Below, one piece after another: positions 29,959-42,841 of a stretch of 64,000 nucleotides of DNA (position 1 is its first letter; each line of letters opens with the position of its first letter). The DNA comes from Limosilactobacillus sp. (GTDB lineage: Bacteria; Bacillota; Bacilli; Lactobacillales; Lactobacillaceae), in the NCBI RefSeq assembly GCF_022482365.1, contig NZ_JAKVPE010000001.1, positions 186,001 through 250,000 on the forward strand, in the 5' to 3' direction. A program made the position numbers and the translations under genes. The notes under the pieces were generated by a model. It saw only the letters and a list, made by a program, of their open reading frames with translations, had not been told where the DNA came from and searched no databases.

Positions 29959-30038
29959 CTTCTTGTAGGAAATAATAGGTAACTGCCAAAATTTTTAATC
30001 TTTAATTATATTTTACACATCTTACTCGGTTATTGATA

Positions 30039-30104
30039 ATGAATGATACTAGGAAAATCTTAGTGGCCATTTCAAAGACAGATGAAGAGGTTGCCGAGAA
30101 GTAA
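30039..30104 (+). pseudogene. Remnant resembling the 3' end of lepA
   Basis: A 21-codon open frame whose last 15 codons (..LVAISKTDEEVAEK) line up without gaps with the lepA C-terminus (..[14 protein letters not shown]), both ending in TAA. Over the final 18 codons I count 35 of 54 identical bases, with the best block at GCC..AAAGAC.GATGA. It lies at the right edge of the island, just before the aromatic operon promoter. Best read as the displaced or diverged lepA end left by site-specific insertion. It is short enough that chance similarity is not fully excluded. Confidence 0.5.
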
Positions 30105-30120
30105 ACATTGATATGAGAGC

Positions 30121-30149
30121 TTGACAACCAAAAATTAAAATGTTTTAAT
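30121..30149 (+). promoter_or_regulatory. Promoter of aromatic leader I
   Basis: Consensus TTGACA (30121-30126), 17-nt spacer, TTTAAT (30144-30149). Transcription would start near 30156, giving a leader of about 270 nt before the first gene. The TTGACAACC context is shared with the promoter of leader II. Confidence 0.85.
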
Positions 30150-30179
30150 AATTGCAACCAAAACGAAGGAGGGAAAGCG

Positions 30180-30242
30180 ATGACCATGAATTCACTAACC
30201 AAGTTGACCAACTCCTTTGCTGGCTTTGCGTATTTCAACTGA
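30180..30242 (+). CDS. Aromatic leader peptide I
   Basis: 20-codon ORF, MTMNSLTKLTNSFAGFAYFN, with a near-perfect GAAGGAGGG ribosome binding site 6 nt upstream. Three Phe and one Tyr fall within eight residues near the end. Codons 3-7 and 15-17 are themselves pairing segments of the attenuator that follows (30188-30198 and 30223-30229), so ribosome position would alter the RNA fold. It precedes the PDT/BacA-like gene and tyrA. Confidence 0.75.
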   Translation: MTMNSLTKLTNSFAGFAYFN

Positions 30243-30401
30243 GGCCCGGCCGAATGGTGCGGGCTGCGGTTCGCACCATGGCAAAGCTTGTTTAGTGAGT
30301 TCTTTGCTAGGTGTTTAATCTAGCAAGGGCTAATTCCTCATCCAAATAGAAATGAAGCCAACTAGATTAACTACCGCTAAGTTAAACTAGTTGGCTTTTT
30401 G
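30188..30401 (+). promoter_or_regulatory. Attenuator I (six alternating RNA segments)
   Basis: Pairings read by eye. 1:2 = 30188-30198 with 30292-30302 (11 bp, one wobble) enclosing 30223-30229 with 30281-30287 (GCTTTGC/GCAAAGC) and a 7-bp hairpin 30255-30278. 2:3 = TGGCAAAG (30279-30286) with CTTTGCTA (30302-30309). 3:4 = 30302-30310 with CTAGCAAGG (30320-30328). 4:5 antiterminator = TTAATCTAG (30315-30323) with CTAGATTAA (30362-30370), plus GGCT with AGCC. 5:6 terminator = AGCCAACTAG (30356-30365) with 30387-30396 and a T run. Stalling on Phe/Tyr codons masks segment 1, favours 2:3 and 4:5, and so read-through. The logic is inferred; the complementarity is seen. Confidence 0.7.
30355..30401 (+). 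terminator. Terminator of leader I
   Basis: 10-bp stem AGCCAACTAG/CTAGTTGGCT, an A-A mismatch, then 6 further bp (TTAACT/AGTTAA), a 7-nt loop and T5. Placed before the first gene, so it is an attenuator stem and not an end-of-operon terminator. Confidence 0.9.
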
Positions 30402-30427
30402 TTATTGCAGAAAGGAGGAACGCCACG

Positions 30428-30961
30428 ATGATCATTCATACATTGGGACCTGAGCAGACCGATAGCTATGCCGCAGCGCTAGTTTACCAGCACCAGCATT
30501 CCGTCGCCGACTGCCAGATCGTTCTCCATCCCAGTTTCGACGCGCTCTACCACCACCTGGCCGATTATCCGAGCGATTATCTCCTGGTCCCCGCGGCCTA
30601 TCGCAGCCGGGCAGGGCTGAGTTGGGGCGACCTGCACTACCGTTATCTTAACCAGCTCACTCTGGTCGATAGCCTCATTACCCAGCTTGATCCGCTGGTC
30701 CTCGTTCAGGATCCGCAGCGCGCGCGGGCCGTGGTCTATACCCACGCCGCCACCGCCGACCTGGCCCGTCAGCATCTTCCGGGCAACGTCCGCCTGGAGC
30801 TGGCGCCAAGCAAATACCTGGCCTACCAGGCATTCCGGCGCTACGGCGGCTATGCTCTGGTGAGCCAAAAGCTGGTGGACCCGACTGCCGGCGTCCGAAT
30901 CCTGCAGCACTTCCCGGCGCGGATGCTCTGGAGCGTGTATTTAATCGAAAAGCAAAATTAA
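30428..30961 (+). CDS. Prephenate dehydratase/BacA-like protein
   Basis: 177 aa, about the size of the prephenate dehydratase catalytic domain without an ACT domain. The start (HTLGPEQTDSYAAAL) fits the LGPEGT block of that fold, and LLVPAAYRS fits its second conserved block. The C-terminal TRF catalytic motif of PheA is absent; instead the end reads ARMLWSVYLIEK, which from memory recalls the tail of BacA (prephenate decarboxylase of bacilysin synthesis, ending near PMSWSLF). So it may use prephenate without being a normal dehydratase. It follows attenuator I and lies 34 nt before tyrA. Exact reaction unknown. Confidence 0.65.
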   Translation: MIIHTLGPEQTDSYAAALVYQHQHSVADCQIVLHPSFDALYHHLADYPSDYLLVPAAYRSRAGLSWGDLHYRYLNQLTLVDSLITQLDPLVLVQDPQRARAVVYTHAATADLARQHLPGNVRLELAPSKYLAYQAFRRYGGYALVSQKLVDPTAGVRILQHFPARMLWSVYLIEKQN

Positions 30962-30995
30962 CAAACCATCACATTTTCTTGAGGAGGAAAAAACT

Positions 30996-32075
30996 ATGAC
31001 AACCGTCTTTATCAGCGGCCTAGGTCTGATCGGCAGCTCCCTGGCCCGGGCAATCAAGGAAGAACACCCCGCGGTCCGCATCATCGCCCGCGACACCAAC
31101 GAAGAATCGCTGCGCTACGCCGTCAGCCACCAGATCATTGACCAGACCGCCGACAGCTTGGCCGCCGCAGACCAGGCCGACCTGATCATCCTGGCCAGCC
31201 CTGTTTCACAGATTGTCCGTGACCTGGAACAGCTGAGCCAGCTTCAGCTCAAGCCGGGCGCGATCGTCACCGACGTCGGCAGCACCAAGCAGACGATCAT
31301 GAAGGCCGCCCAGCGCCTGATCGACAAGGGAGTTACCTTCATCGGCGGGCACCCGATGGCGGGATCCCACAAGTCGGGGGTTCGGGCCGGGCGCGCCGAC
31401 CTGATCGAGAATGCCTTCTACTTCCTGATCCCCGGCCAAGACGATCCGGCCGCCGTTCAGCACCTGACCGACCTGCTCAGCGGGACGCACGCCAAGTGGC
31501 TCACCGTTCAGCCGCACCAGCACGACAAGATCGTGGCCCAGATCAGCCATGTGCCCCACGTTATTGCGGCGGAACTGGTCAATCAGACCCAGCAGACCCT
31601 TGAAAACGAGCCGATCGGGATGCGGGTGGCTGCCGGGGGCTTTAAGTCCGTGACCCGGATCGCCGCCTCCGACCCAACGATGTGGAGTGCGATCCTCCTC
31701 AACAACCAGGAGCTGATCACCCATCAGCTGGACGAATACATCCGGGGACTGCAGGAGGTCAACCAGCAGATCAAAGCCGGGGACCGGGATCAGCTCTTCG
31801 ACTTCTTTGCCCGGGCGAAGGCGAGTCGGGAGAGCCTCAATCACCCGGCCAAGAAGCCGTTCTACGACCTCTTCGTCAACATCCCCGACCACACCGGTGA
31901 GCTGGGGCGGGTGACCACCATGCTCGGCACGGCAGGAATCTCGATCATCAACTTGCAGATCCTGGAAGTGCGGGAAGACGTCAACGGGATTCTCCAGCTG
32001 ACCTTTGCCTCCCAGAAGGATCGCGAACAAGCGGCAGCGGTCCTTAAGCCCCACTACGAGATCGTGACCCGCTGA
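30996..32075 (+). CDS. tyrA: Prephenate dehydrogenase
   Basis: Oxidises prephenate to 4-hydroxyphenylpyruvate for tyrosine. 359 aa. The N-terminal Rossmann domain has FISGLGLIGSSLARAI (about 5-20), followed by the GGHPMAGSHKSGVRAG substrate region (about 117-132). The helical dimerisation domain follows, and a C-terminal ACT domain starts near DHTGELGRVTTMLGTAGISI (about 300-320), which usually gives feedback control. GAGGAGG precedes the ATG. Cotranscribed with the upstream PDT/BacA-like gene under attenuator I; no clear terminator separates it from promoter II. Confidence 0.93.
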   Translation: MTTVFISGLGLIGSSLARAIKEEHPAVRIIARDTNEESLRYAVSHQIIDQTADSLAAADQADLIILASPVSQIVRDLEQLSQLQLKPGAIVTDVGSTKQTIMKAAQRLIDKGVTFIGGHPMAGSHKSGVRAGRADLIENAFYFLIPGQDDPAAVQHLTDLLSGTHAKWLTVQPHQHDKIVAQISHVPHVIAAELVNQTQQTLENEPIGMRVAAGGFKSVTRIAASDPTMWSAILLNNQELITHQLDEYIRGLQEVNQQIKAGDRDQLFDFFARAKASRESLNHPAKKPFYDLFVNIPDHTGELGRVTTMLGTAGISIINLQILEVREDVNGILQLTFASQKDREQAAAVLKPHYEIVTR

Positions 32076-32110
32076 GAGGAAAATTAATAAAATTAAATTT
32101 AGATTAGAGG

Positions 32111-32139
32111 TTGACAACCGATTCCTCATAATATATACT
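32111..32139 (+). promoter_or_regulatory. Promoter of aromatic leader II
   Basis: TTGACA (32111-32116), 17-nt spacer, TATACT (32134-32139), close to the sigma-A ideal. Shares the GAG.TTGACAACC context with promoter I. Confidence 0.88.
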
Positions 32140-32181
32140 TTAGCCAACGTCAAGGAAGAAAAGAAAAAGGAGTTTTGAATC

Positions 32182-32226
32182 ATGACAATGATTAACTGGT
32201 ATGCGTTTTATTATCGAGTGCACTAG
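32182..32226 (+). CDS. Aromatic leader peptide II
   Basis: 14-codon ORF, MTMINWYAFYYRVH, with AAAGGAG 9 nt upstream. Trp, Tyr, Phe, Tyr, Tyr occupy residues 6, 7, 9, 10 and 11, so it could sense all three aromatic amino acids. The Tyr-Tyr-Arg codons (32209-32217) pair exactly with 32276-32284 in the leader RNA. Begins MTM like leader I. Confidence 0.82.
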   Translation: MTMINWYAFYYRVH

Positions 32227-32404
32227 GGTTCACACCACACGGGTTGCGGGCTCTAGCCTTTGACAGCCTGTGTGGTCGATAATAAGCCATGATTACCGAT
32301 TACACAGTAAATTCCAAACACTGTGTGGTCGGGAAAACTCCACTAGCATTTACATAATGCTCATTATCCTCACAGTGTTTTCACACCGTGAGGATATTTT
32401 TTTA
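32209..32404 (+). promoter_or_regulatory. Attenuator II (six alternating RNA segments) before aroF
   Basis: 1:2 = TATTATCGA (32209-32217) with TCGATAATA (32276-32284), plus CCACACGGG (32235-32243) with CCTGTGTGG (32267-32275). 2:3 = 32268-32283 with 32292-32307, a 16-position stem with one mismatch and an 8-nt loop. 3:4 = CCGATTACACAGT (32296-32308) with ACTGTGTGGTCGG (32320-32332), 13 bp with two wobbles. 4:5 antiterminator = 32317-32328 with CCTCACAGTGTT (32368-32379), 11 of 12. 5:6 terminator = 32368-32378 with 32383-32393. A ribosome held on the Tyr codons frees segment 2, which should give 2:3 and 4:5 and so expression when aromatic tRNAs are uncharged. Confidence 0.75.
32368..32404 (+). 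terminator. Terminator of leader II
   Basis: CCTCAC-A-GTGT pairs with ACAC-C-GTGAGG (one A-C mismatch), loop TTTC, then ATATTTTTTT. It stands before aroF, so it is an attenuator stem. Confidence 0.88.
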
Positions 32405-32431
32405 CCAAGAATTTGAGAAGGGATGATTGAG

Positions 32432-33427
32432 ATGATTATTGTACTCCACGAAGAACAAGCCACCGAAATGATTAAGCAGCTGCAGGAACGCTTTAGCGAT
32501 CACCATCAGGTCTTTGTCCACGGCAATCGGGTGGCCGTGCAGGGGATCGCACCCGCCGACCTGACAATGGAACAGCGGGAAGCCGCTACGGAATTAATCA
32601 CCAACGTTCCCAAGGCGGTCCAGGCTTCCCGGCTCTTCCACCCAGAGGACACGGTGATCAAAACCGCCCATTCAATCATCGGCGGCGGCCACTTCGCCCT
32701 GATGGCCGGGCCGTGCTCGGTTGAATCAGCCGACCACGTGATGAAGATGGCGGCGGTTGTCAAGGAATCCGGGGCCACCGTTCTCCGGGGCGGTGCCTTC
32801 AAGCCACGGACCTCACCATACTCCTTCCAGGGGCTGGGAAAAGAGGGGCTGGTTGCTCTGCGGAAGGCGGCCGATCACTTTGGTCTCGACGTCATCACCG
32901 AGGTTATGGACGACGAACACGTTCCATTGGTTGAGGAATTTACCGACATCTTCCAAATCGGGGCGCGGAACATGCAGAACTTCTCCCTCCTCAAGGCGGT
33001 CGGCAAGACCAACAAGCCGGTGATGCTAAAGCGGGGGATGTCCGCCACCGTTGATGACATCCTAAACGCCAGCGAGTACATCGCCGCGGGGGGCAATCAC
33101 CAGATCATGATTGCCGAGCGGGGGATCCGGACCTTCGACAACAAGTACACCCGGAACACCTTTGACGTCGGCGTCGTGCCGGTCCTGCAGAAGCTGACCC
33201 ACTACCCGGTAATCGTCGACCCGAGCCACGCGGCCGGTCACACCGAATTCGTGACGCCGCTGGCCCTGGCCGGGGTCGCCGCCGGGGCGGATGGCCTGAT
33301 CGTCGAAATCCACGATGATCCCGCCCACGCCCTCTCCGATGGTCCCCAGGCACTGAAGCCGGACCAATTCCAGGAAATGGTCAAGAAGGTCAACGTAGTG
33401 CGGACGGCCCTCACTGCGGCAGAGTAA
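32432..33427 (+). CDS. aroF: 3-deoxy-7-phosphoheptulonate (DAHP) synthase, type I beta
   Basis: First committed step of the shikimate pathway: PEP plus erythrose 4-phosphate to DAHP. 331 aa: an N-terminal ferredoxin-like regulatory domain (about 1-75), then the TIM barrel with MAGPCSVES (about 92-100), [33 protein letters not shown] and DPSHAAGH. The ATG at 32432 is 9 nt after AAGGG; the ATG at 32423 abuts the ribosome binding site and is rejected. It leads aroF-aroB-orf-microORF-aroE-aroD, directly behind attenuator II. Confidence 0.95.
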
Positions 33428-33439
33428 GGGGATGAGCGA

Positions 33440-34513
33440 ATGAAGAAGATTACGGTTAAACTGAGCACTAAGCAATACGATGTCCTGATTGAAAAAGGTT
33501 TGCTGAAACAGGCGGGCAGCCTGGTGGCCGGTGTCTGGTCGCCACGCAAGGTCGCCATCGTCAGCGACAGCAACGTTGCCCCGCTCTACCAAGCGCAACT
33601 GGCTGCCGAGCTGAAGAAGAGCGGCTTCACGGTTCACTGCTACCAATTCCCGGCGGGGGAGGCCTCCAAATCTCTTCCGCAGCTGCAGGAGCTGACCGAG
33701 CAATTGGTGGCCGACAACTTCAATCGGGACGACGGGGTGATTGCCCTGGGCGGCGGGGTGACCGGCGACCTGGCCGGCTTCCTGGCCGCCACCTACATGC
33801 GGGGCATCGCTTTAATTCAAATTCCGACTTCGCTGCTAGCCCAGGTTGACAGTTCGGTCGGCGGCAAGACCGCCGTTGACCTCGGGACCACCAAGAACAT
33901 TGTCGGGGCCTTTTACGAACCCGACCTGGTGATCATCGACCCGACAACGTTAACCACCTTGGAACAGCGGGATCTGGTCGAAGGTTACGGCGAAATCGTC
34001 AAGGTCGCGGCGATGACCGGCGGGGACTTCTGGAAACTAATTACCGAAATTCAAACCCCAGCCGACATTTTCCAGCACGCGACCGAGCTGAGCGAGGGGG
34101 CCATCCAATTCAAGGCCGACATCGTCATGGCGGACGAAAAGGAAGGTGGCCAACGTCAACTACTGAACTTTGGTCACACGATCGGGCACGCCGTTGAAGC
34201 CCTAGCGGCCGGCGAGCTGCGCCACGGTGAAGCCGTCAGCATCGGCACCGTCGCTATCTGCCAAGCATTTGAAGCCGCCGGTAAAACCGCGCCGGGGGTG
34301 ACCGAACAGATTCGCGATCGTTTCGCCACCGTCGGCCTGCCGGTGGACTCACCCTTATTAAAGTCGCCAGCGATGCTCGACAAGATTAAACACGACAAGA
34401 AAAATCATAACGGCCACTTAAACCTGGTTTACGTTCACACGATCGGTGAACCGGCCATCCTGACCGTTCCTGAAAAAGAAATTGCTGCCACACTGCAACT
34501 ACCACGAAAATAA
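33440..34513 (+). CDS. aroB: 3-dehydroquinate synthase
   Basis: Second shikimate step, DAHP to 3-dehydroquinate; NAD- and metal-dependent. 357 aa. NAD-binding ALGGGVTGDLAGFLAATYMRG (about 101-121), PTSLLAQVDSSVGGKTAVD (about 130-148), metal ligands in EGYGEIVK, NFGHTIGHAVEA and HGEAVSIG. It starts 12 nt after aroF. Complete. Confidence 0.96.
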   Translation: MKKITVKLSTKQYDVLIEKGLLKQAGSLVAGVWSPRKVAIVSDSNVAPLYQAQLAAELKKSGFTVHCYQFPAGEASKSLPQLQELTEQLVADNFNRDDGVIALGGGVTGDLAGFLAATYMRGIALIQIPTSLLAQVDSSVGGKTAVDLGTTKNIVGAFYEPDLVIIDPTTLTTLEQRDLVEGYGEIVKVAAMTGGDFWKLITEIQTPADIFQHATELSEGAIQFKADIVMADEKEGGQRQLLNFGHTIGHAVEALAAGELRHGEAVSIGTVAICQAFEAAGKTAPGVTEQIRDRFATVGLPVDSPLLKSPAMLDKIKHDKKNHNGHLNLVYVHTIGEPAILTVPEKEIAATLQLPRK

Positions 34514-34525
34514 GGAGCGATAAAT

Positions 34526-34936
34526 ATGATCATCGAAGAACTCAACACCAACGGAATCGTCGTTAAGAATAATGCCGGCCAAGAGGAACACATCTCCGAC
34601 CTGGCCTGGGTCGAGGGGAGCACGAACTCCGTGGCGGCCAACCAGCAGATTAAGCTGGCCCTGGCCAACCAGCGCCCGGTCTTCTTCCACCTCGATGAGG
34701 GTGGTCAGCGGCTCACCCCATTCGAATTCGCCGAGCGTATTGACGCCCAGATCAGTGCTTGCCTGGCTGGGATTCGTGCTAGCCTGGTGGCCGAGATTAA
34801 CTTCGTTTACCAGCCACTTCACCAATTAAGCCAGCAGGAACAAGCCATCATCAATCGTCGCATCCACGACGTTTTGACCGACTTGTTCGGTGCCAACATT
34901 GCTACCGCACAAGTCATCATTGAACAAGCCGCCTAG
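34526..34936 (+). CDS. Unrecognised 136-aa protein in the shikimate operon
   Basis: I do not recognise this family. Soluble, no signal peptide or membrane span. The N-terminal half looks beta-rich (IIEELNTNGIVVKNNAG, HISDLAWVEG); the C-terminal half is helical (LTPFEFAERIDAQISACLAG, LSQQEQAIINRRIHDVLTDLFG). It has no resemblance to AroH- or AroQ-type chorismate mutase or to shikimate kinase that I can see. It sits 12 nt after aroB with AAGGAG before the ATG, and its codon use matches the flanking aro genes, so it is a real gene of this operon. A regulatory or assembly role with the neighbouring enzymes is possible but only inferred. Confidence 0.85.
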   Translation: MIIEELNTNGIVVKNNAGQEEHISDLAWVEGSTNSVAANQQIKLALANQRPVFFHLDEGGQRLTPFEFAERIDAQISACLAGIRASLVAEINFVYQPLHQLSQQEQAIINRRIHDVLTDLFGANIATAQVIIEQAA

Positions 34937-34952
34937 GAAGGGAGGGGATACT

Positions 34953-35048
34953 ATGAATAAGGAACAAGAACTGATGCGCCAAGCCAGCGAACAGGAACTG
35001 AAGTTAGTTGCGGAAGACCTCGAAGACAACCTGGAAGGGAGAGATTAG
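34953..35048 (+). CDS. 31-aa microprotein between the unknown gene and aroE
   Basis: ATG at 34953, stop at 35046-35048. A strong AGGAAGGGAGGGG ribosome binding region lies upstream, and the aroE ATG comes 1 nt after the stop. The peptide is very rich in Glu, Gln, Leu and Asp (MNKEQELMRQASEQELKLVA at the start) and would form an acidic amphipathic helix. The spacing and ribosome binding site argue for real translation; at the least it couples translation into aroE. No family recognised. Confidence 0.6.
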   Translation: MNKEQELMRQASEQELKLVAEDLEDNLEGRD

Positions 35049-35049
35049 G

Positions 35050-35934
35050 ATGGTGCAGATCGACGGCCACACCGGCCTGCTGGGAATCTTTGCGACCCCG
35101 ATTGGCCACACCCTTTCGCCCCGTATGCACAACTACTCCTTTCGGCGGCTAGGCCTTAACTACGTCTACCTCGCCTTTGAGGTTGGCAACGAGGAACTAG
35201 CCAGTGCCGTTCAGTCGATCCGCACGCTCAACATGCGGGGTGTCAACGTCTCAATGCCCAATAAACAGGCCATCGTTCCCCTCCTGGACCGGCTCTCACC
35301 GGCGGCCCGGCTGACGGGGACGGTCAACACGGTCGTCAACGATCACGGCGTCTTGACGGGCCATATTACCGACGGGATTGGCTTCATGCGAGCACTCCAG
35401 GATGAGGGACTCGACATCACGGGCCGCAAGATGGTGCTTGCCGGTGCCGGGGGCGCGGGGACGGCCGTGGCGGTCCAGGCCGCCCTTGACGGTGTCGGCG
35501 AGATTGCGCTCTTCAACCGCCAGCACGGTACCAAGTGGGCCCAGGCGCAGAAAATCGTGGCACTGATTAATGCACAGACGAACTGCCAAGCCAGCTTGCA
35601 TGCCTTGGAGAATCAGGACGAATTACAAGCCGCACTGAAGGAGGCCGATATTTACGCCGACACGACCAGCCTGGGGATGAAACCGCACGAAAACGAGGCG
35701 GTCGTTAATGACCCGACTTGGTTTCACCCGGACATGATCGTCTTCGATGCCGTTTACGCCCCGCGGGAAACCAAGTTGCTGAAGGTGGCCCGCCAGGCGG
35801 GAGTTCAGCACTGTCTGAATGGCATTGGGATGATTATTGAACAGGGGGCGGCGGCCTTTGAGCTCTGGACTGGCAAGCAGATGCCGGTCAACGAGGTTCG
35901 CCACCTGCTCTTTGAGGAGGATCAACATGACTAA
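35050..35934 (+). CDS. aroE: Shikimate dehydrogenase
   Basis: NADPH-dependent reduction of 3-dehydroshikimate to shikimate. 294 aa. The shikimate-binding Ser pair is in TPIGHTLSPRMHN; NVSMPNKQ carries the catalytic Lys (the family usually has Thr where Ser is found here); the glycine-rich LAGAGGAGTAVAVQAA (about 131-146) binds the cofactor. The ATG at 35050 lies just after the microORF stop with GGAAGGGAGA upstream; an earlier in-frame start at 35008 would overlap the microORF and is rejected. Confidence 0.94.
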   Translation: MVQIDGHTGLLGIFATPIGHTLSPRMHNYSFRRLGLNYVYLAFEVGNEELASAVQSIRTLNMRGVNVSMPNKQAIVPLLDRLSPAARLTGTVNTVVNDHGVLTGHITDGIGFMRALQDEGLDITGRKMVLAGAGGAGTAVAVQAALDGVGEIALFNRQHGTKWAQAQKIVALINAQTNCQASLHALENQDELQAALKEADIYADTTSLGMKPHENEAVVNDPTWFHPDMIVFDAVYAPRETKLLKVARQAGVQHCLNGIGMIIEQGAAAFELWTGKQMPVNEVRHLLFEEDQHD

Positions 35935-36688
35935 AGAAACACTAACGATTAAGGAAACGGTATTCGGGGCTGGTCGCCCGAAGATTGCCGTTCCGGTGAC
36001 CGCTGATACGATGGCGGCGGCAGTTGTCCAGGCACAGCAGTCCGCCCTGCCAGCGGTGGACGTAATTGAATGGCGAATCGACTTCCTGAAGGGAACAGTG
36101 GATCCGCAAGCAATCGCCAAGACGGCGCGACGAATTCAAGCAGTGATTTCGCCGCGCCTTTTGCTCGTGACGCTGCGGACCAAGGAGGAGGGCGGCCAGG
36201 TCCAGGTCACTGACGAGCGCTACCAGGAGCTGTACCGCCCCCTGTTGGCGACGGGAAGCACGGATCTGGTCGACCTGGAGCTGTTGGCCAACTCCAGCGC
36301 GTGCCTTACTGCGCTGACTGCTTTGGCCCATGAGCACCAGGTCAAGGTAATCATGAGCAGCCACGACTTTGCCAAGACACCGCGTCCAGCAATTCTTAAG
36401 CAACGGCTTAACCAGATGGAAGTGGCGGGGGCGGACATTGCCAAGCTCGCGGTGATGCCACACAGCCCCACCGACGTCCTGGAGGTGCTGGAGCTGACCC
36501 AGGACTACCACCTTCATGGTCAGCTGCCCCTGATCACCATGGCGATGGGCGACCTGGGAAAGATCACCCGGGTCAGCGGTGAGCTGTTTGGTTCCTGTCT
36601 GACCTTTGCCAGCGTGGGGCGGGCATCGGCGCCCGGCCAGATCGCCGTGGAGGAGCTGGATCGGATTCTAAATGACCTCAGAATATAA
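35927..36688 (+). CDS. aroD: 3-dehydroquinate dehydratase, type I
   Basis: Schiff-base dehydratase making 3-dehydroshikimate. 253 aa. Catalytic residues are visible: Glu/Arg in VIEWRIDF, His in IMSSHDFAKTP and the Schiff-base Lys in DIAKLAVMPHS, with SVGRASAPGQI near the C-terminus. The ATG at 35927 overlaps the end of aroE by 8 nt and has GAGGAGGATC upstream. Last gene of the + strand shikimate operon. Confidence 0.95.
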   Translation: MTKETLTIKETVFGAGRPKIAVPVTADTMAAAVVQAQQSALPAVDVIEWRIDFLKGTVDPQAIAKTARRIQAVISPRLLLVTLRTKEEGGQVQVTDERYQELYRPLLATGSTDLVDLELLANSSACLTALTALAHEHQVKVIMSSHDFAKTPRPAILKQRLNQMEVAGADIAKLAVMPHSPTDVLEVLELTQDYHLHGQLPLITMAMGDLGKITRVSGELFGSCLTFASVGRASAPGQIAVEELDRILNDLRI

Positions 36689-36698
36689 TTGAGCACAA

Positions 36699-36738
36699 TA
36701 AAAGCAGGTTTCGGGAAAAATCTCGAAATCTGCTTTTC
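36699..36738. terminator. Bidirectional terminator between the two shikimate operons
   Basis: AAAGCAGGTTTCG pairs with CGAAATCTGCTTT (one wobble) with A and T tracts on either side. It ends aroD (+) and aroK (-). Confidence 0.88.
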
Positions 36739-36743
36739 GTTAG

Positions 36744-37247
36744 CTAGTCTTCAATAAGGCCAATGATCTGATCAACAATCTCCTGTGGTGTCCGGCCGTC
36801 CGTGTCGATAGTGAAGTCAGCACACTCGTCGTAGCGGGCCTGGCGCTTGGCTAGCAGTGCCGCTAACCCAGCTGTGTCAAGCGTATCGGCCAGTGGACGT
36901 TCGCCATCGTGCTGGATTCGCCGTGCCGTTTCTTCCGGGCTGGCGTGCAGCAGAATGACGGGGGCGGGATCCGCCGTCAGTGCCCGGCGGTTGTCAGCCC
37001 GCAATGGGGTGCCGCCGCCCGTGGCGAGGATCCCGTCGCGCCTCTGGAGGACCATGGTCAGGGTCTGGTGTTCGACCGTCCGGAAGCCCTCCTCACCGCT
37101 CTCTTGAAAGATCTGCGGAATTGATTTCCCGCTGGACTGTTCGATCGCCCGGTCCAGGTCGGTGACGGGAAGGTGGAGTTGGTCGGCCAGCAAGGTGCTG
37201 ACGGTGGTCTTCCCGCTCCCCATGAAGCCAATTAAAATAATTCGCAT
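36744..37247 (-). CDS. aroK: Shikimate kinase
   Basis: Phosphorylates shikimate with ATP. 167 aa. P-loop IGFMGSGKTTVS (about 6-17), substrate Asp in TDLDRAIEQ, Arg in EEGFRTVE, and GGGTPL (about 78-83). Last gene of the - strand operon MFS-CM-aroC-aroA-aroK, 27 nt after aroA. Confidence 0.95.
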   Translation of the reverse strand: MRIILIGFMGSGKTTVSTLLADQLHLPVTDLDRAIEQSSGKSIPQIFQESGEEGFRTVEHQTLTMVLQRRDGILATGGGTPLRADNRRALTADPAPVILLHASPEETARRIQHDGERPLADTLDTAGLAALLAKRQARYDECADFTIDTDGRTPQEIVDQIIGLIED

Positions 37248-37274
37248 AGAAATGCACCTCAGTTTCTGTTGGAA

Positions 37275-38567
37275 TTAGTCCTGACCAAGCAACTTGGTGA
37301 GGTCGTCGAAGAAGGTCGGGTAGGACACCGCCACCGCCGCCGCATTCTGCAGCTGCAGGGGCTGCGGGCTCTTCAGGGCGGCAATCGCGTCCATCATCCC
37401 CAGCCGGTGGTCGCCGTAGCTGTCCAGGTGCGAATCCTGGATATCCCAGTCCGGCCGGCCGTCGATCACCATGCCATCCGGCAGTTCGGTTACCGCGACG
37501 CCGAGCTTGCGGAGCTCCGCCACCACCGTCTTGATCCGGTCGGTTTCCTTGACCCGCAGCTCCTGGGCCCCGGTAATCCGGGACCGTCCGTTTGCGCAGG
37601 CGGCAAGCAGGGCTACCAGCGGCAGTTCATCAATAACAGCGGGAACGTCTTCGGCCCCAAGCTCGATTGGCTTGAGTGTGCTGGTCGCAATGGTGATGTC
37701 GCCCTGGGGTTCGCCGGGGCCGTCAAGCGGGGTGATTTCCAGCTGGGCACCCATCTTCTTGAGCACAGTCAGAATGCCTGTCCGGGTGGGGTTCAGGTTT
37801 ACCCCGGTCAGCGTGACCTTGGAGTGGGGAACGATTGCCGCGGCAACCAGGAAGAAGGCAGCGGAGGATATGTCCCCGGGTACCGTAATTTCCTGCCCCA
37901 CAAGCGGTGCCCCGGGAGTCACCGTGATGGTCTTCCCACTGGTCTGAATGTCCGCGCCAAACTGACGCAGCATGATCTCGGTATGGTCACGGGTCGGCAG
38001 CTTTTCAACGATGGTTGACGGCTCCGTGGCCTGGAGGGCGGCGAAGATGAGGGCGCTCTTCACCTGGGCGGAGGCGACCTTCATCTGGTAGTGGGTCCCG
38101 TGGAGCGGGTGGCCGATAATCGTTGCCGGCAGGGTTCCCTCAGGACTGAGCCGGACCTCGCCCCCGAAGCTCTTCAAGGGTTCGCTGACCCGCTTCATCG
38201 GCCGGGACTCCAACGATTGGTCACCGGTGAGGGTGGTTGAGAAATTGCTGCCCGCGAGAATGCCCATCATCAGGCGGGTCGTCGTTCCCGAATTGCCCAT
38301 GTCCAAGGGGTGCGTTGGTGCCTGGAGCCTGTCAAAGCCGGTACCGTGAACCACGATGTCTTCACCCGTCGCGTCGATCCTGACGCCGAGGTCACGGAAG
38401 GCCTGGAGGGTGGAAAGGCAGTCATTGCCCTTTAGAAAATGGTGGATGGTGGTGGTGCCCTGACTGACGGCACCGATCATGATGGCCCGGTGGGAGATGC
38501 TCTTGTCCCCGGGAACAGCCAGGCTGCCATGTAGCCCGGTCGAATGTGCGCTTGGTAAATTCTTCAT
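37275..38567 (-). CDS. aroA: 3-phosphoshikimate 1-carboxyvinyltransferase (EPSP synthase)
   Basis: Joins PEP to shikimate 3-phosphate. 430 aa, two-domain inside-out barrel. PGDKSISHRAIM (about 18-29) carries the S3P/PEP-binding Lys, GNSGTTTRLMMGIL (about 91-104) the PEP loop, and KETDRIKTV lies near residue 340. Complete. 22 nt downstream of aroC with GGGAGGCACC before the ATG. Confidence 0.96.
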   Translation of the reverse strand: MKNLPSAHSTGLHGSLAVPGDKSISHRAIMIGAVSQGTTTIHHFLKGNDCLSTLQAFRDLGVRIDATGEDIVVHGTGFDRLQAPTHPLDMGNSGTTTRLMMGILAGSNFSTTLTGDQSLESRPMKRVSEPLKSFGGEVRLSPEGTLPATIIGHPLHGTHYQMKVASAQVKSALIFAALQATEPSTIVEKLPTRDHTEIMLRQFGADIQTSGKTITVTPGAPLVGQEITVPGDISSAAFFLVAAAIVPHSKVTLTGVNLNPTRTGILTVLKKMGAQLEITPLDGPGEPQGDITIATSTLKPIELGAEDVPAVIDELPLVALLAACANGRSRITGAQELRVKETDRIKTVVAELRKLGVAVTELPDGMVIDGRPDWDIQDSHLDSYGDHRLGMMDAIAALKSPQPLQLQNAAAVAVSYPTFFDDLTKLLGQD

Positions 38568-38589
38568 TGAAAGGTGCCTCCCTAAATAA

Positions 38590-39756
38590 CTAGAAGTTTG
38601 CGAGTTGGTGGCGGTATTCTGCGATCCCCGCCTGCAGCCGCGTCAGGCTGGCGGCCTCGAAGGTATCGGTGATCGCCTTGGCCAGTTCGATTGCGACCAC
38701 GTTTTCGACCACGAGCGAGGCCGGCACGATGGCGGTGACGTCGGATCGTTCCACGTTGGCCTTCAGCTTTTCCTTGGTGTTGATGTCGACGGTCTGCAGT
38801 GGCTTGTAGAGGGTCGGGATGGGTTTCATCGCCGCGTTGATGATGATCGGCATTCCGTTGGTCATTCCGCCCTCGAAGCCGCCGAGGTGGTCGGACAGGC
38901 GAGAAAAGCCCTGACCGACTTGGTAGTCGATCTCGTCCATGACCTGGCTGCCGGGAGCCTTGGCAACATCGAAGCCGTCCCCGAAGCTGACGCCCTTGAT
39001 TGCGTTGACGCCCATGACCGCCCCGGCAAGTTTAGCATCGAGCTTGGTGTCCCAGCTGATGTAGGAACCCAGCCCGGCCGGCACGTTTTGGGCCACTACC
39101 CGGATCAGCCCCCCCAGGGAATCCCCGGCGCGCTTCGTCGAGTCGATTAGCTGGTGAATTGATTCGACCTGGTCCTGGTTGAGGATTCGCAGGTCGTTTT
39201 GCTGAATCTTTTGCTGAATCTGGGCAACGTCCAACAGCGGCTCGGCCTCGACGTGGATCGAGCCAACCTGCTGGACAAAGCCGACCAGGCGGATGTCTAA
39301 AGCGGCAAGCAATTGTTCACAGACGTTGCCGATGGCGACCCGCATGGCGGTTTCCCGGGCGGACGAACGCTCTAGGACGTTCCGCAGGTCGCGGTGGTTG
39401 TACTTCATCCCCCCAACCAGGTCGGCGTGGCCCGGCCGCGGGTGTTCGACCTTACGGACCGTGTTGGCAGGTGTGGCCGGGCTGATCGGGTCCATGATCC
39501 GGGACCAGTTGGCGTGATCGCGGTTCTGGATAACCAGGGCGATCGGTGAGCCCAGGGTGACGCCGTGGCGGACACCCCCGACGATTTGGACCTGGTCGTG
39601 CTCGATCTTCTGACGGTTGCCCCGACCGTAGCCACCTTGGCGGGCGGCCAAGGCCGCGTTGATTTGGTCGACGTCAAGGTGCAGTCCGGCGGGAATTCCT
39701 TCAATGATTCCCGTCAGCTGTGGGCCGTGTGATTCTCCGGCAGTAATAAAGTTCAT
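38590..39756 (-). CDS. aroC: Chorismate synthase
   Basis: Makes chorismate from EPSP with reduced FMN. 388 aa. MNFITAGESHGPQLTGIIEG at the start, RPGHADLVGGMKY (about 101-113) and SARETAMRVAIG are signature blocks. The ATG at 39756 is 9 nt after AAAGG; an ATG at 39765 abuts the ribosome binding site. The chorismate mutase stop ends just 1 nt before the start, so the two are translationally coupled. Confidence 0.96.
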   Translation of the reverse strand: MNFITAGESHGPQLTGIIEGIPAGLHLDVDQINAALAARQGGYGRGNRQKIEHDQVQIVGGVRHGVTLGSPIALVIQNRDHANWSRIMDPISPATPANTVRKVEHPRPGHADLVGGMKYNHRDLRNVLERSSARETAMRVAIGNVCEQLLAALDIRLVGFVQQVGSIHVEAEPLLDVAQIQQKIQQNDLRILNQDQVESIHQLIDSTKRAGDSLGGLIRVVAQNVPAGLGSYISWDTKLDAKLAGAVMGVNAIKGVSFGDGFDVAKAPGSQVMDEIDYQVGQGFSRLSDHLGGFEGGMTNGMPIIINAAMKPIPTLYKPLQTVDINTKEKLKANVERSDVTAIVPASLVVENVVAIELAKAITDTFEAASLTRLQAGIAEYRHQLANF

Positions 39757-39757
39757 T

Positions 39758-40033
39758 TTATTCATCCTTTCGTAATGCTTCTTCGTAAGCGCGTGATTGG
39801 TGCATGATCTCTTGGAAAACGGCGGCGATAAAAGGTGCCTTTTGGGGATCGGCAACTGCCGCTTCGACCTGCTTTAGGACGGCGGTTTCCCGCTGGGGGT
39901 CCAGGACGGGCAGGTGGTGTTCTTCCTTATAATAGTTGACCTGAGTCACCGCGGTGAAACGTTCTTCCAATAGCTTGACGAGCGCGGCGTTGAGCTGGTT
40001 GATCGACTGACGTGCTTGGTCTAGTTCGTTCAT
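39758..40033 (-). CDS. Chorismate mutase, AroQ class
   Basis: 91 aa, all-helical AroQ fold, converting chorismate to prephenate. LDQARQSINQLNAALVKLLEERF carries the helix 1 pattern; the Lys/Arg/Glu residues in YYKEEHHLPVLDPQRE (about 45-60) fit the active site, and the C-terminal helix has EIMHQSRAYEEAL. It lies between the MFS gene and aroC in the - strand operon. Feeds the prephenate-using genes at 30.4-32.1 kb. Confidence 0.9.
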   Translation of the reverse strand: MNELDQARQSINQLNAALVKLLEERFTAVTQVNYYKEEHHLPVLDPQRETAVLKQVEAAVADPQKAPFIAAVFQEIMHQSRAYEEALRKDE

Positions 40034-40056
40034 AGCAATTATCTCCTTTACCTCTA

Positions 40057-41262
40057 TTATGCGCGCTTTTGGCCCTTTTGTAAGCAGGCCAGGGCGATCA
40101 TTAAGAGTGTCCCGACGATGCCGACGAAAATGTCGCCGCCAAAGGTGAGGGTGATGCTGCTGGTGGAGAGGACCCCAGTGATCAGCGGCACGGTGAATGA
40201 GGCGATCGAGCCGAAGAAGTAGAAGATCCCGGTGATCATGCCCCGGTGCTGGGGAAACATGTTCATGAAGACGGTCAGGCCGGTCTGCATGACCCCCGAA
40301 GCGGCGGAAAGCCCGAAGACGAAGGCGGCCGCGTTGGCTACGAGGACGTTTTGGCCGGCCAGCAGGATGACGGCCAGGGCGCAGACGGCAGTCAGGTTCA
40401 AGCCCACCAGCAGGATCAATTCGTTAGCGTTGTGCTTGAGCAGGAAGAAGAGGGCGATTACGCCGGCCATCGAACCAATGCTGTAGCAGGAGAGGACGGT
40501 GTGGGCGGCCAGGTTGCCGAAGTGAAAGGCCCGTTGGGTGAAGAGGGTGATCCACTGGGTGAACCAGATCATCAGGGCCATTGAGGTGTAGCCGTATGCC
40601 AAGAGAATAATGGTTGAGAGAACCTTCTTGGCCTTGCCCTGCCGCAGCTGGGGCTGGTGCAGCTTAACGTGTTCGGCTTTCTTGATGGTTGGAAAACGCA
40701 GGGTTGCCATGTTGACAATGTTGATGATCAGGAGGGCGGCCATGATGATGAAGGACCAGCCGAACCAGAGGTTGTTAGCGTTGAGGCTGGCAACGATCAG
40801 GGGCAGGATGAATTCACCGATCGACATGAAGCCCTTGATCAGGATGGTGTCGTAGCCATTGCCATCATTCATTTCGACCAAGGTGGTGTAGGTCCCGGCA
40901 TCCAGGGCCGAGTTGGCAATTCCGGCAAGAATTGCCAGGCAGTATGCGACCGGGACGCTGTGGGTCATGACCATGCCCAGGGCAAAGATGAGGTAGGAGA
41001 ACATCCCGATATTGACCAGGAGCTTACGGCTCAGGAGGTCGGCGAGGCTCCCGGTGATCAGGTAGGAGATCAGCCGGCCGATGCCGACGCCGGAGATGAC
41101 GAAGGAAACGGTCTTGACCGGGACGGCCCACGCCCCACCCAACGCAACCATGTTTTGGGCGAGGATGATCAGACCGAAGCCGTGAACCAGGTAATTGAGG
41201 TAGAGGCTGGCGGTCAGGCGTTTTCGATTAACTTGTGAATTTGTACTTACTGTTGCTTGCAT
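40057..41262 (-). CDS. MFS transporter heading the - strand shikimate operon
   Basis: 401 aa with about 12 hydrophobic segments and the MFS loop motif as GSLADLLSRKLL (about 71-82). The substrate cannot be read from sequence. Being first gene of the operon behind attenuator III, with chorismate mutase and aroC-aroA-aroK after it, it is likely controlled by aromatic amino acid supply and may carry a shikimate-pathway intermediate, quinate/shikimate or an aromatic amino acid. AAGGGAG precedes the ATG. Confidence 0.85.
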   Translation of the reverse strand: MQATVSTNSQVNRKRLTASLYLNYLVHGFGLIILAQNMVALGGAWAVPVKTVSFVISGVGIGRLISYLITGSLADLLSRKLLVNIGMFSYLIFALGMVMTHSVPVAYCLAILAGIANSALDAGTYTTLVEMNDGNGYDTILIKGFMSIGEFILPLIVASLNANNLWFGWSFIIMAALLIINIVNMATLRFPTIKKAEHVKLHQPQLRQGKAKKVLSTIILLAYGYTSMALMIWFTQWITLFTQRAFHFGNLAAHTVLSCYSIGSMAGVIALFFLLKHNANELILLVGLNLTAVCALAVILLAGQNVLVANAAAFVFGLSAASGVMQTGLTVFMNMFPQHRGMITGIFYFFGSIASFTVPLITGVLSTSSITLTFGGDIFVGIVGTLLMIALACLQKGQKRA

Positions 41263-41284
41263 TTGGATCGACTCCCTTGATTAA

Positions 41285-41334
41285 AAACGAAAAGGACCAG
41301 CTAGTTGAGACGTTGCTCAATCTAGCTGGTCCTT
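41285..41334 (-). terminator. Terminator of leader III
   Basis: A 13-bp stem (AAGGACCAGCTAG with CTAGCTGGTCCTT) extended by TTGAG/CTCAA past one bulge, 6-nt loop, then TTTTCGTTTTT on the - strand. It stands about 25 nt before the MFS start. Confidence 0.9.
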
Positions 41335-41508
41335 CAGGCTTTGTTGACAAGTAGCCGGGTGAAAGATGAATGAACTCTGCTAGATTGCTGTCCCCAGCAG
41401 AGCGTCATTAATGAGACTATGCTGAGGTACGAACGTCCCGTCCGCACCTCCAAGCGCGGACATTAATTCATGTCAGCATAGCTATAAAACTTCGTCAGCA
41501 TTAATGAC
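41285..41508 (-). promoter_or_regulatory. Attenuator III (six alternating RNA segments)
   Basis: Coordinates on the + strand, RNA read on -. 1:2 = 41499-41508 with 41404-41413 (10 bp, GTCATTAATG/CATTAATGAC) enclosing 41473-41481 with 41417-41425 (9 bp, CTATGCTGA/TCAGCATAG) and a 6-bp hairpin 41440-41461. 2:3 = 41420-41427 with 41392-41399 (8 bp, one wobble). 3:4 = 41396-41402 with 41375-41381 (CTCTGCT/AGCAGAG). 4:5 antiterminator = 41379-41387 with 41318-41326 (9 bp, exact). 5:6 = terminator 41292-41334. Same topology as I and II with unrelated sequence. Read-through is expected when a ribosome stalls at the Phe/Tyr codons. Confidence 0.75.
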
Positions 41509-41519
41509 TTATGATTCAT
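41463..41519 (-). CDS. Aromatic leader peptide III
   Basis: 18-codon ORF, MNHKSLMLTKFYSYADMN, with AAAGGAAG about 6 nt upstream of the ATG. Phe, Tyr, Ser, Tyr at residues 11-14; these codons overlap pairing segment 1 (41473-41481), and codons 4-8 overlap the outer pairing segment (41499-41508). Confidence 0.75.
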   Translation of the reverse strand: MNHKSLMLTKFYSYADMN

Positions 41520-41551
41520 CGTTACTCTTCCTTTCGTTTGATGTTGATATT

Positions 41552-41580
41552 ATTAAAACATTCTCATTTTATTTTGTCAA
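41552..41580 (-). promoter_or_regulatory. Promoter of aromatic leader III
   Basis: On the - strand: TTGACA (41580-41575), 17-nt spacer, TTTAAT (41557-41552), the same -10 as promoter I. Confidence 0.85.
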
Positions 41581-41606
41581 CCGCTAATTTCAATTTAATT
41601 TTTCAC

Positions 41607-41634
41607 TTGTTGATCGATGGTGGGGCGCTATAAT
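41607..41634 (+). promoter_or_regulatory. Promoter of the divergent MFS gene
   Basis: TTGTTG (41607-41612), 16-nt spacer, TATAAT (41629-41634). The start codon follows at 41663, so no long leader is present, unlike the aromatic operons. Confidence 0.7.
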
Positions 41635-41662
41635 GGTTATTAATACGACGAGGGGGAGAATA

Positions 41663-42841
41663 ATGGCAAAAAAGGAATCCGTTTTTACGAAGGATGTCGT
41701 CTTAGTAATGATGGCGTCGTTCTTCTTTATTTTTTCAAATATGTACTGCAACCCGCTGATCAACGGCTACGCTAAGGAGCTGGGGGCCTCCAGCGCTTTT
41801 GCCGGCGTTATCGTCGGCATGATGAGCATCGTCGCCATGTTCTTGCGGCCGATCGTCGGGAACTTGACGGACCGCTTTTCCAAGTACCGCTTGGCGCTCT
41901 GGGGCGGCCTGCTTTCGTTCATCGGGGTCGCCGGCTACGTCTTGACGCCCAACAGCGGCTTGCTGATCGTCTTCCGGCTGATCAACGGGACCGGCTATGT
42001 TCTCTGCACGGTCTGCATGACGACCTGGCTGTCCTATCTGGTGCCACTGGCGCACGTGGGTGAGGCGATGAGCTTTTACGGGATCATGAACGCCCTGGCG
42101 ATGGCCTGTGCCCCGGCCGTTTCGATTAACCTCTATCACGTCATCGGTTACCGGCCGGCAATCATCATTTCAGCGTTTTCGGCATTGATGGTGGTGGTAA
42201 CGGTCCAGTTCGTTTCCGACCGGGCCCAGCCGAGTCCCAAACAGGTGGCGGCGGCCAAGGCTGGGCACCTGAAGCTGATTCAAAAGGACTGCATCCCGAT
42301 TGCCTTGATCGTGGCTCTGATTGCGATGCCCTATTTTACCACCCAGGCGGACATCGTGACCTACACCGAGCAGGCTCACATCCCGGTGGCGGTCGGCTTC
42401 TACTTCCTGATCTACGCGGCGGTCTTGGTCCTCAGTCGGATCTTTTTGCGCAACCAGTTTGACACGGTTCGCTTTGGCGTCTGGCTCTACGTCAGCGTGA
42501 TCGCCACCGTTTTTTACCTGTTGATGCTGATTTTTATGCAAAACAACTGGCAGATGGCCCTGGCCGCGATCGGGATGGCCGTCGCCTACGGGTTGCTGTA
42601 TTCGGTTTGTCAGTCGACTGCGATGATGCTAGCGCCGTCGAGCGAGCGGGGACTGGCCTCAGCGACCTTCTTCCTCGGCCTGGACGTTGGGATGTCGTTT
42701 GGCCCGATCATCGCCGGCCTGGTCGATACCTACCTGCCGATCAGGGCCTTCTACCTCGTCTGGTTAATCACGGTGCCGCTGATTCTCATAATCTACTGGG
42801 CCAACCGGAAGAAACTAAACTCCGCGGTTTCGCGACACTAA
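41663..42841 (+). CDS. MFS transporter
   Basis: 392 aa, about 12 membrane helices, with the loop motif GNLTDRFSKYRLALWG (about 66-81) typical of drug/sugar-type MFS proteins. The ATG at 41663 follows GAGGGGGAG; the in-frame ATG at 41633 overlaps the -10 box and is rejected. Divergent from the aromatic operon, sharing its upstream region but not its leader. Substrate unknown. Confidence 0.88.
   Translation: MAKKESVFTKDVVLVMMASFFFIFSNMYCNPLINGYAKELGASSAFAGVIVGMMSIVAMFLRPIVGNLTDRFSKYRLALWGGLLSFIGVAGYVLTPNSGLLIVFRLINGTGYVLCTVCMTTWLSYLVPLAHVGEAMSFYGIMNALAMACAPAVSINLYHVIGYRPAIIISAFSALMVVVTVQFVSDRAQPSPKQVAAAKAGHLKLIQKDCIPIALIVALIAMPYFTTQADIVTYTEQAHIPVAVGFYFLIYAAVLVLSRIFLRNQFDTVRFGVWLYVSVIATVFYLLMLIFMQNNWQMALAAIGMAVAYGLLYSVCQSTAMMLAPSSERGLASATFFLGLDVGMSFGPIIAGLVDTYLPIRAFYLVWLITVPLILIIYWANRKKLNSAVSRH

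Follow-up and report, generated by a model that had tools for sequence, protein, structure and literature searches.

We identified in a 64,000-nt stretch of a Limosilactobacillus genome (the window; positions 186001-250000 of a one-contig genome of 2.34 Mb) three leaders, I to III, that precede three aromatic transcription units (pdt-tyrA, plus strand; aroF-aroB-orf136-aroE-aroD, plus strand; MFS-CM-aroC-aroA-aroK, minus strand, where CM is chorismate mutase; assignments from Pfam and NCBIfam). Each leader is very probably a ribosome-mediated transcription attenuator. In our most far-reaching reading, to which we give a probability of about 0.75, leaders I and III belong to a modular Lactobacillales attenuator family, a leader-peptide counterpart of the T-box, in which one scaffold beginning at the stop codon of a mini open reading frame (mini-ORF) is used with swapped codons (Phe, Tyr, Phe plus Tyr, Ile) and swapped genes (pdt, a chorismate operon, NhaC-like and ABC transporters, threonine ammonia-lyase). 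The Enterococcus small RNA (sRNA) sRNA_2410 would be an aborted transcript of this family, not a stand-alone regulator, and leader II would represent a second, similarly built family in which Phe, Tyr and Trp are all read. As far as our searches reach, what is new within the literature searched is the pair of covariation-supported Lactobacillaceae leader families, their codon-gene match and the reuse of the scaffold across Lactobacillales.

A first-pass annotation of the window had placed a promoter, a mini-ORF and a terminator before each unit. All were found as claimed, the gene content was borne out by Pfam, and the span was correctly drawn from the -35 element of promoter I (30121) to that of promoter III (41580, minus strand). 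The parts, with their ribosome binding sites (RBS), are:

30121-30149, plus strand: promoter I, TTGACA (30121-30126), 17 nt, TTTAAT (30144-30149), with a TGn just upstream of the -10; it aligns to promoter III
32111-32139, plus strand: promoter II, TTGACA-17-TATACT (promoter scan, 11/12)
41552-41580, minus strand: promoter III, TTGACA (41580-41575), 17 nt, TTTAAT (41557-41552), from the sequence
30180-30242, plus strand: leader ORF I, MTMNSLTKLTNSFAGFAYFN, RBS 30166-30172; FAYF end as in relatives
32182-32226, plus strand: leader ORF II, MTMINWYAFYYRVH, RBS 32166-32172; a leader ORF before aroF is kept in the genus
41463-41519, minus strand: leader ORF III, MNHKSLMLTKFYSYADMN, RBS 41527-41534; kept in L. 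kribbianus and L. frumenti
30355-30397, plus strand: leader I intrinsic terminator (5:6) and U-run (terminator search, fold)
32365-32396, plus strand: leader II terminator (5:6) and U-run (terminator search, fold, z -6.8)
41291-41335, minus strand: leader III terminator (5:6) and U-run (terminator search, fold, z -7.7)

As in attenuators of the his/trp type, an RBS-led short ORF, whose translation is predicted, stands between promoter and first gene, and an intrinsic terminator with its U-run lies upstream of that gene. Generic promoter and terminator scans told little about these leaders: of the three promoters as described, only II was listed, since the rule of the scan excludes the -10 TTTAAT of I and III, and none of the three leader terminators was listed. 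By the terminator search, a hairpin of -13 kcal/mol or below was present in 63 of 63 leaders, compared to 10 of 189 block-shuffled leaders and 22 of 189 random locus windows, which may include real terminators. The search misplaced at least three of the 63 terminators (B_L115, A_L010 and A_L022); B_L115 was corrected before the ribosome calculation described below, and the other two were kept in that calculation and excluded from the alignments.

All three leaders folded far more stably than their dinucleotide shuffles (z -4.7 for I, -7.0 for II and -8.0 for III), and each has two mutually exclusive helix sets, as was expected of competing structures in the first-pass annotation. The helices are:

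30254-30279, plus strand: leader I hairpin 1c (30254-30264) with 2 (30268-30279), terminator state (fold, covariation)
30274-30313, plus strand: leader I helix 2:3 (30274-30286 with 30302-30313), antiterminator state (covariation of 2:3 in the family)
30302-30328, plus strand: leader I helix 3:4 (30302-30313 with 30317-30328), terminator state (fold, covariation)
30317-30368, plus strand: leader I helix 4:5 (30317-30328 with 30358-30368), antiterminator (covariation)
32207-32285, plus strand: leader II helix 1:2, Tyr codons (32207-32217) and the post-stop arm (32233-32245) with 32266-32285 (fold; covariation that includes codon wobble positions)
32266-32307, plus strand: leader II helix 2:3 (32266-32285 with 32296-32307), antiterminator state (covariation)
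32296-32332, plus strand: leader II helix 3:4 (32296-32307 with 32319-32332), terminator state (fold, covariation)
32319-32378, plus strand: leader II helix 4:5 (32319-32332 with 32366-32378), antiterminator (covariation)
41420-41462, minus strand: leader III alternates 1b:1c (41454-41462 with 41440-41451) and 1c:2 (41440-41451 with 41420-41437), where 1b abuts the stop codon (fold, covariation)
41392-41437, minus strand: leader III helix 2:3 (41420-41437 with 41392-41402), antiterminator state (covariation)
41375-41402, minus strand: leader III helix 3:4 (41392-41402 with 41375-41386), terminator state (fold, covariation)
41316-41386, minus strand: leader III helix 4:5 (41375-41386 with 41316-41332), antiterminator (covariation)

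Both helix sets covary in relatives. We aligned 28 Lactobacillaceae leaders of the I/III kind (A1; B_L114 and C_L108 excluded from 30) and 30 of the leader II kind (A2; A_L010, A_L013 and A_L022 excluded from 33), and took the helices from one reference row each; A4 excludes L120 and L121 from the 30 rows in A2. The terminator-state helices were paired in 91.5% of the cells of A1 (1c:2, 3:4, 5:6), with double-sided changes in 30 of 38 pairs, and in 92.2% of the cells of A2 (1:2, 1c:2, 3:4, 5:6), with double-sided changes in 31 of 38. For the mutually exclusive antiterminator-state set (1b:1c, 2:3, 4:5) the values were 87.9% and 18 of 28 pairs in A1 and 88.3% and 15 of 22 pairs in A2, where 1b:1c was the weakest helix (76.6% paired). 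Controls in which the partners were slid by one to three columns had 23-49% of cells paired. The covariation score was reached by 0 of 500 shuffles in each of the four tests, values that overstate independence because the leaders are related; in the A2 antiterminator test, 4 of 500 shuffles reached the number of pair types. RNAalifold, unaided, recovered the terminator-state helices of A1. Furthermore, the A2 helix that contains the Tyr/Trp codons has double-sided changes at codon wobble positions (columns 51 and 54) and, therefore, coding and pairing have been kept together. The compensatory changes for which the relatives were to be searched are thus found in terminator- and antiterminator-state helices alike, and mutually exclusive helices with such changes are another property of his/trp-type attenuators.

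Although the leaders had been reported to share no obvious sequence, I and III are related: their local alignment, from the -35 into the mini-ORF, scored 53 (maximum of 26 in 200 mononucleotide shuffles), and blastn aligned leader I over approximately 220 nt (E 1e-12) with the leader-III-type leader of another member of the genus (L063). Leader II had no alignment to I or III above the shuffle null. The “MTM” starts of ORFs I and II are absent from diverged relatives and look like chance.

Leader III is present in L. kribbianus and L. frumenti. An aroF-type DAHP synthase is encoded in 7 of 50 genus genomes, and in all seven an RBS-led mini-ORF starts 237-279 nt upstream of aroF, with a diverged N-terminus and a Phe/Tyr-rich end (WYAFYYRVH in two genomes, FSYYYYQPR, FSYYYQSY, FSYYYQSR, HSFYYWS and RFGYYWP). 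In other genera, no leaders were found at first directly upstream of aroF because the operon there starts with tkt. In Liquori-, Lactiplanti-, Levi- and Ligilactobacillus, each of the 13 named loci has a mini-ORF ending in FYYYWF or YYYYWF directly ahead of the transketolase gene, which places it 2.3 to 3.3 kb upstream from aroF (order tkt-aroE-aroF, or tkt-aroF in L022). The gene next to the leader was tkt (16) or aroF (7) in all 23 distinct leaders checked from fetched loci. Matches to the pattern search (52 of 397 genomes) contain chance hits and are not a count of leaders; one leader cut at its locus edge (L009, UBA5807) is in no count.

The pdt-like protein of unit I has relatives in 115 of 397 Lactobacillaceae genomes, of which 43 were examined (our own plus 8, 20 and 14), and 29 of these had a clear leader ORF. 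The leader preceded a chorismate-type operon containing pdt in 16 (first gene MFS, aroE or CM; mostly YYFGFAYF-like), pdt alone in 9 (Phe only, e.g., FNFSFFR) and operons starting with tkt or aroE, then aroF, in 3; the remaining one is the window's own. In the nine stand-alone cases, neither the fetched 4-6 kb upstream nor the 3.1 kb downstream had a match to another aromatic gene of the window. Upstream of trpE, the 27 loci scanned had no convincing Trp-rich leader; of the 20 that were compared with Rfam, one (L156) has a T-box at gathering. In L154, L157, L159 and L160, trpE is preceded by short ORFs that have an RBS and a lone Trp in an RW context (KRWQ, ERWH), a signal too weak to call them leaders.

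From the part of A1 between the stop codon and segment 4 we built a covariance model (R1) that contains no sense codons except in one row (L128, one of the 28 rows of A3, starts three sense codons ahead of the stop, in columns filled mainly by gaps). The counts from R1 and from R2, the model for the leader II kind, are lower bounds because only the best candidates per genome (10 to 84) were scored. In the genome of the window R1 matched three loci: leaders I and III, both in the training set, and a new one outside the window (1452988-1453084, minus strand), whose predicted peptide, MKSLNTAKYYNNDAYSA, precedes an NhaC-like transporter (Pfam Na_H_antiporter above cut-off; NCBIfam NhaC 366, cut-off 370). 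Judged from its sequence, this fourth leader makes the aromatic regulon larger than the window. R1 matched at least 35 of 47 genus genomes, and the 30 loci opened there lie before an NhaC-like transporter (23, assigned by sequence start; example peptide KYYNNYAYRA) or an MFS transporter (6), with one cut. The NhaC-like arrangement recurs in many Limosilactobacillus genomes, the majority of which had no aroF match. In the order, at least 41 of 395 genomes matched, including 14 from other families; in the class, at least 3 of 299 did, one of them outside the order. The leader outside the order (L246, genome G865; DYYGFYYYFR) precedes, by eye, a homologue of the MFS transporter of the window, a possible case of horizontal transfer. 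R2 matched at least 7 of 47 genus genomes, which are the seven aroF genomes and are in or near the training set, and at least 4 of 236 genomes of the order.

We opened 59 R1 loci that were not used in training; they include near-identical genomes (e.g., L237, L238 and L239), and the set leaves aside contig ends (L171, L186, L187 and L190) and hits without a fetched stretch. An RBS-led ORF with its stop within 4 nt of the model start was present in 57 of the 59 loci (71 of 2360 random positions within these loci), and at least four F/Y/W or at least four I in the last 12 residues in 55 (13 of 2360 random positions); the stop position was partly trained, the codons were not. The four codon misses are L191, L204 (our own fourth leader), L222 and L245. 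In L222 (G062), a SYYWLSYF stretch lies out of frame with an RBS-led ATG, about 100 nt upstream of the R1 match; the next gene is, in our reading, peptide-transporter-like, and the locus is perhaps a decayed leader or a sequence error.

The codons in these ORFs follow the genes behind them. Counts are for the last 12 residues of distinct peptides. The NhaC, TrpX and Ile rows are nearly all from R1; the peptides of classes A to D were partly picked by aromatic content (F+Y+W), and just their F/Y/W split is informative. R1 leaders outside the table are L172, L181, L205, L206, L211, L213, L215, L225, L243, L244 and L246. Codons per peptide, by gene context, are:

NhaC-like (n=20): Tyr 4.10, Phe 0.15
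Stand-alone pdt (n=9): Phe 3.56, Tyr 0
TrpX-like ABC binding protein (n=15): Phe 3.80, Tyr 1.13, Trp 0
Chorismate operon (n=22): Phe 2.23, Tyr 3.14, Trp 0.09
DAHP-synthase operon (n=30): Phe 1.70, Tyr 3.03, Trp 0.93 (Trp in 27 of 30)
Isoleucine leaders (n=3): Ile 4.67

The Ile leaders precede threonine ammonia-lyase in two genomes (a match above cut-off was checked for L230) and a branched-chain ABC binding protein in L242 (NCBIfam below cut-off). Thus, the proposal that codon mixes are tuned to each branch is supported across genera, and the leaders have the clustered codons for the operon end product that typify his/trp-type attenuators, with the TrpX-like genes and L243 as exceptions. The Tyr leaders also agree with the Tyr T-boxes described for NhaC transporters in several other Firmicutes (PMC2494555; here and below, statements on published work refer to the accessible portions of the cited papers).

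Together, mini-ORF conservation, covariation of both helix sets and the codon-gene match support the ribosome-sensed, branch-tuned aromatic regulon that the first-pass annotation had proposed. We infer the transcription start, the ribosome stalling and the response to tRNA charging. RNA polymerase would start at promoter I, II or III, and a ribosome would start the mini-ORF. When Phe-, Tyr- or, in leader II, Trp-tRNA is scarce, the ribosome would stall on the aromatic codons, 2:3 would pair, segment 4 would be free for 5 and, with no 5:6 terminator, the operon would be transcribed. With ample charged tRNA, the ribosome would reach the stop and depart, the upstream arm (1 or 1c) would capture segment 2, 3:4 would pair and 5:6 would terminate transcription. 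Arm 1b directly follows the stop codon in nearly all A1 rows, which suggests that a ribosome positioned at the stop in the I/III family would mask 1b, leaving 1c free to capture 2.

We also calculated the equilibrium 4:5 pairing in the nascent RNA with a ribosome placed at each codon. In 86 R1-type leaders the mean predicted pairing was 0.57 without a ribosome, 0.71 with the ribosome at the sensing codons and 0.61 at the stop. Compared to no ribosome, pairing rose at the sensing codons in 71 of the 86 leaders, by more than 0.2 in 34; it was above the stop value by more than 0.2 in 16 and below it by that much in none. On average, pairing is highest with the ribosome four to eight codons ahead of the stop, which is the place of the sensing codons. 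For the window (none, aromatic, stop), leader II had 0.17, 0.50 and 0.38 and leader III 0.36, 0.78 and 0.62. The calculation therefore supports a predicted switch in the I/III kind on average, but not at the stop codon in the leader II kind.

Added to the relatedness of the leaders, by which shuffle and Wilcoxon values overstate independence, several results weigh against attenuation. Pairing in leader I (0.32, 0.72 and 0.77 for none, aromatic and stop) did not fall at the stop, and the expected fall was also missing from class A, the leader II kind (n=23; 0.45, 0.57 and 0.66), and from class D (n=10; 0.43, 0.52 and 0.59); in 3 of the 86 R1-type leaders, pairing fell by more than 0.2 at the sensing codons relative to no ribosome. 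Our own fourth leader has just three Tyr codons and neither Phe nor Trp. No clear leader ORF was found in 14 of the 43 pdt-bearing genomes examined, one of which is a contig end. TrpX-like proteins, which owe their Trp name to NCBIfam (304 and 301 bits, cut-off 390), follow Phe/Tyr leaders without a Trp codon, and the L243 leader (QSFFNFAYF) precedes a permease nearest to the branched-chain BcaP (577, below the cut-off of 690). In these last two cases, either the names or the codon rule fail.

An improbable alternative is that the leader peptides arrest the ribosome with a free amino acid as the ligand, as in TnaC- or Erm-like systems, rather than report tRNA starvation at the codon level. Some C-termini are indeed conserved beyond their aromatic residues (NRFYYYWF, FAYF, a final R before the stop). 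However, a single RNA scaffold carries sensing stretches made of Tyr only, Phe only, a mixture or Ile only, depending on the gene, the N-terminal half of the peptides varies and the wobble bases of Tyr codons covary with an RNA arm in the leader II kind; codon swapping fits codon sensing better than it fits one arrest sequence.

Less probable still is that the leaders are of a known type that binds tRNA or protein, such as a T-box, a TRAP target or a riboswitch. Firmicute aromatic genes are often under T-box control, and NhaC Tyr T-boxes exist as noted above, yet no Rfam family reached gathering in the window, where the first-pass annotation had asked for such a search. From 29950 to 42000, the T-box model (RF00230) had no match at E up to 1, and that threshold gave just microRNA and snoRNA models far below gathering. 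Equally remote is the idea that the mini-ORFs are incidental and that the terminators mark boundaries or are small RNAs in their own right. An Enterococcus relative is in print as a putative sRNA (PMC5593968) and leader II sits where transcripts of tyrA (stop at 32075) must end, with no other terminator before 32365 by eye, but the antiterminator helices covary too and, in 57 of the 59 model hits, the model starts no more than 4 nt from the end of an RBS-led ORF.

Under ribosome-mediated attenuation, the codons name the amino acid that is sensed and the leaders, therefore, predict functions for unassigned genes: the 177-aa pdt-like protein would belong to the Phe branch, the NhaC-like proteins would be Tyr transporters and the TrpX-like ABC systems would transport Phe/Tyr, not Trp. 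The pdt-like protein has no Pfam or NCBIfam match, and those of its 29 homologues that are named are hypothetical or “amino acid biosynthesis” proteins. Among the 10 best PDB matches of its predicted structure (mean pLDDT 94.4), 8 are prephenate dehydratase chains from four entries, with TM-scores of just 0.5-0.6 and many other two-lobed binding proteins ranking behind. Because of these fold matches and the Phe-only leaders before stand-alone copies, it is likely a prephenate dehydratase without the regulatory domain.

The genes of the three units are:

30428-30961, plus strand: pdt-like gene, 177 aa; no Pfam, predicted fold nearest to prephenate dehydratases
30996-32075, plus strand: tyrA, prephenate dehydrogenase (Pfam, NCBIfam)
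32423-33427, plus strand: aroF, DAHP synthase (Pfam, NCBIfam)
33440-34513, plus strand: aroB, 3-dehydroquinate synthase (Pfam)
34526-34936, plus strand: orf136; weak Tautomerase match, below cut-off
35050-35934, plus strand: aroE, shikimate dehydrogenase (Pfam)
35927-36688, plus strand: aroD, type I 3-dehydroquinase (Pfam)
36744-37247, minus strand: aroK, shikimate kinase (Pfam)
37275-38567, minus strand: aroA, EPSP synthase (Pfam, NCBIfam)
38590-39765, minus strand: aroC, chorismate synthase (Pfam, NCBIfam)
39758-40033, minus strand: CM, chorismate mutase type II (Pfam)
40057-41262, minus strand: MFS transporter, first gene after leader III (Pfam, NCBIfam)

Among the 13 proteins run (pdt to MFS2), 11 had a Pfam family above cut-off, and pdt and orf136 had none; aroK was below the curated NCBIfam cut-offs. 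The orf136 gene, between aroB and aroE, is also present in L. kribbianus and L. frumenti (42% identity in the latter). Directly upstream of leader I (26222-29958) are a phage-type integrase, a transposase (IS30-like in our own reading) and a 337-aa protein without assignment. L. kribbianus (L008, 3488-3996) is without the leader I-pdt-tyrA segment at the site matching 30064-32130 of the window; homology restarts 4 nt upstream of the promoter II -10, with the result that the -35 of promoter II is different there.

The only Rfam family matching the R1-type leaders scanned was RF02863 (sRNA_2410). In L224, from another family of the order, the match scored 64.2 bits (gathering 61; 20 loci scanned) and began within the final codons of the leader ORF, continuing along the leader, which precedes a TrpX-like gene; six further R1-type leaders matched below gathering (12 loci scanned, E 0.01). 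RF02863 had no match to the window leaders at E up to 1, nor to leader III at E up to 10. The published sRNA_2410 is a 195-nt putative sRNA of Enterococcus faecium supported by RNA-seq, qPCR and a Northern blot, with two transcripts (PMC5593968). Its sequence kinship to the leaders suggests that it may be an aborted leader transcript.

If our reading is true, lactic acid bacteria have a ribosome-based system for aromatic amino acids and a published Enterococcus sRNA is re-explained as a leader. With codons apparently swapped on one scaffold, the way in which new attenuator specificities arise also becomes testable.

Leader-peptide attenuation is a classical mechanism, and in lactic acid bacteria T-boxes are the commonly reported device. 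The closest architecture is the six-segment (A-F) leader of the his operon in enteric bacteria, which also has a mini-ORF with cognate codons, alternates 1:2/3:4/5:6 with 2:3/4:5 and terminates before the first gene. The likeness is one of architecture: the his attenuator is from another phylum, and the I/III family adds an arm 1b after the stop, with 1b:1c alternating with 1c:2.

The claim that these leaders have no described counterpart stands in part. Firmicute leader-peptide attenuators are in print (PMC2965389, PMC9413887, PMC8632094), and none was found for aromatic leaders of lactobacilli in the titles and abstract openings searched, a scope that excludes subscription papers. Histidine leader peptides predicted from sequence replace T-boxes before hisS/hisZ (PMC2965389) and his operons (PMC9413887) in Firmicutes; as described in the accessible portions, they concern histidine only, in bacilli and some clostridial and erysipelotrichal groups, without aromatic lactobacillar leaders, and his genes of Lactobacillales have T-boxes (PMC9413887). 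The uORFC-13-1 element, reported in Acholeplasma and environmental sequences only, resembles our leaders by description, not alignment, in having a Phe-coding upstream ORF and a terminator before aroF (PMC8632094). Branched-chain leader attenuators in Staphylococcus aureus, where the leader is Leu-rich (PMC5794164), and in Listeria (PMC5864092) are alike, by description, in the leader-peptide control of Firmicute amino acid genes. The leu/phe leader of Lactococcus lactis (RF01743), a Lactobacillales leader class named for Leu and Phe (PMC2864571), differs in having no match to the leaders scanned (window and R1-type loci). Unlike the T-box (RF00230), which has no match in the window, the leaders described here would sense through a translated ORF; like the T-box, they would use one scaffold whose codon is changed for different amino acids.

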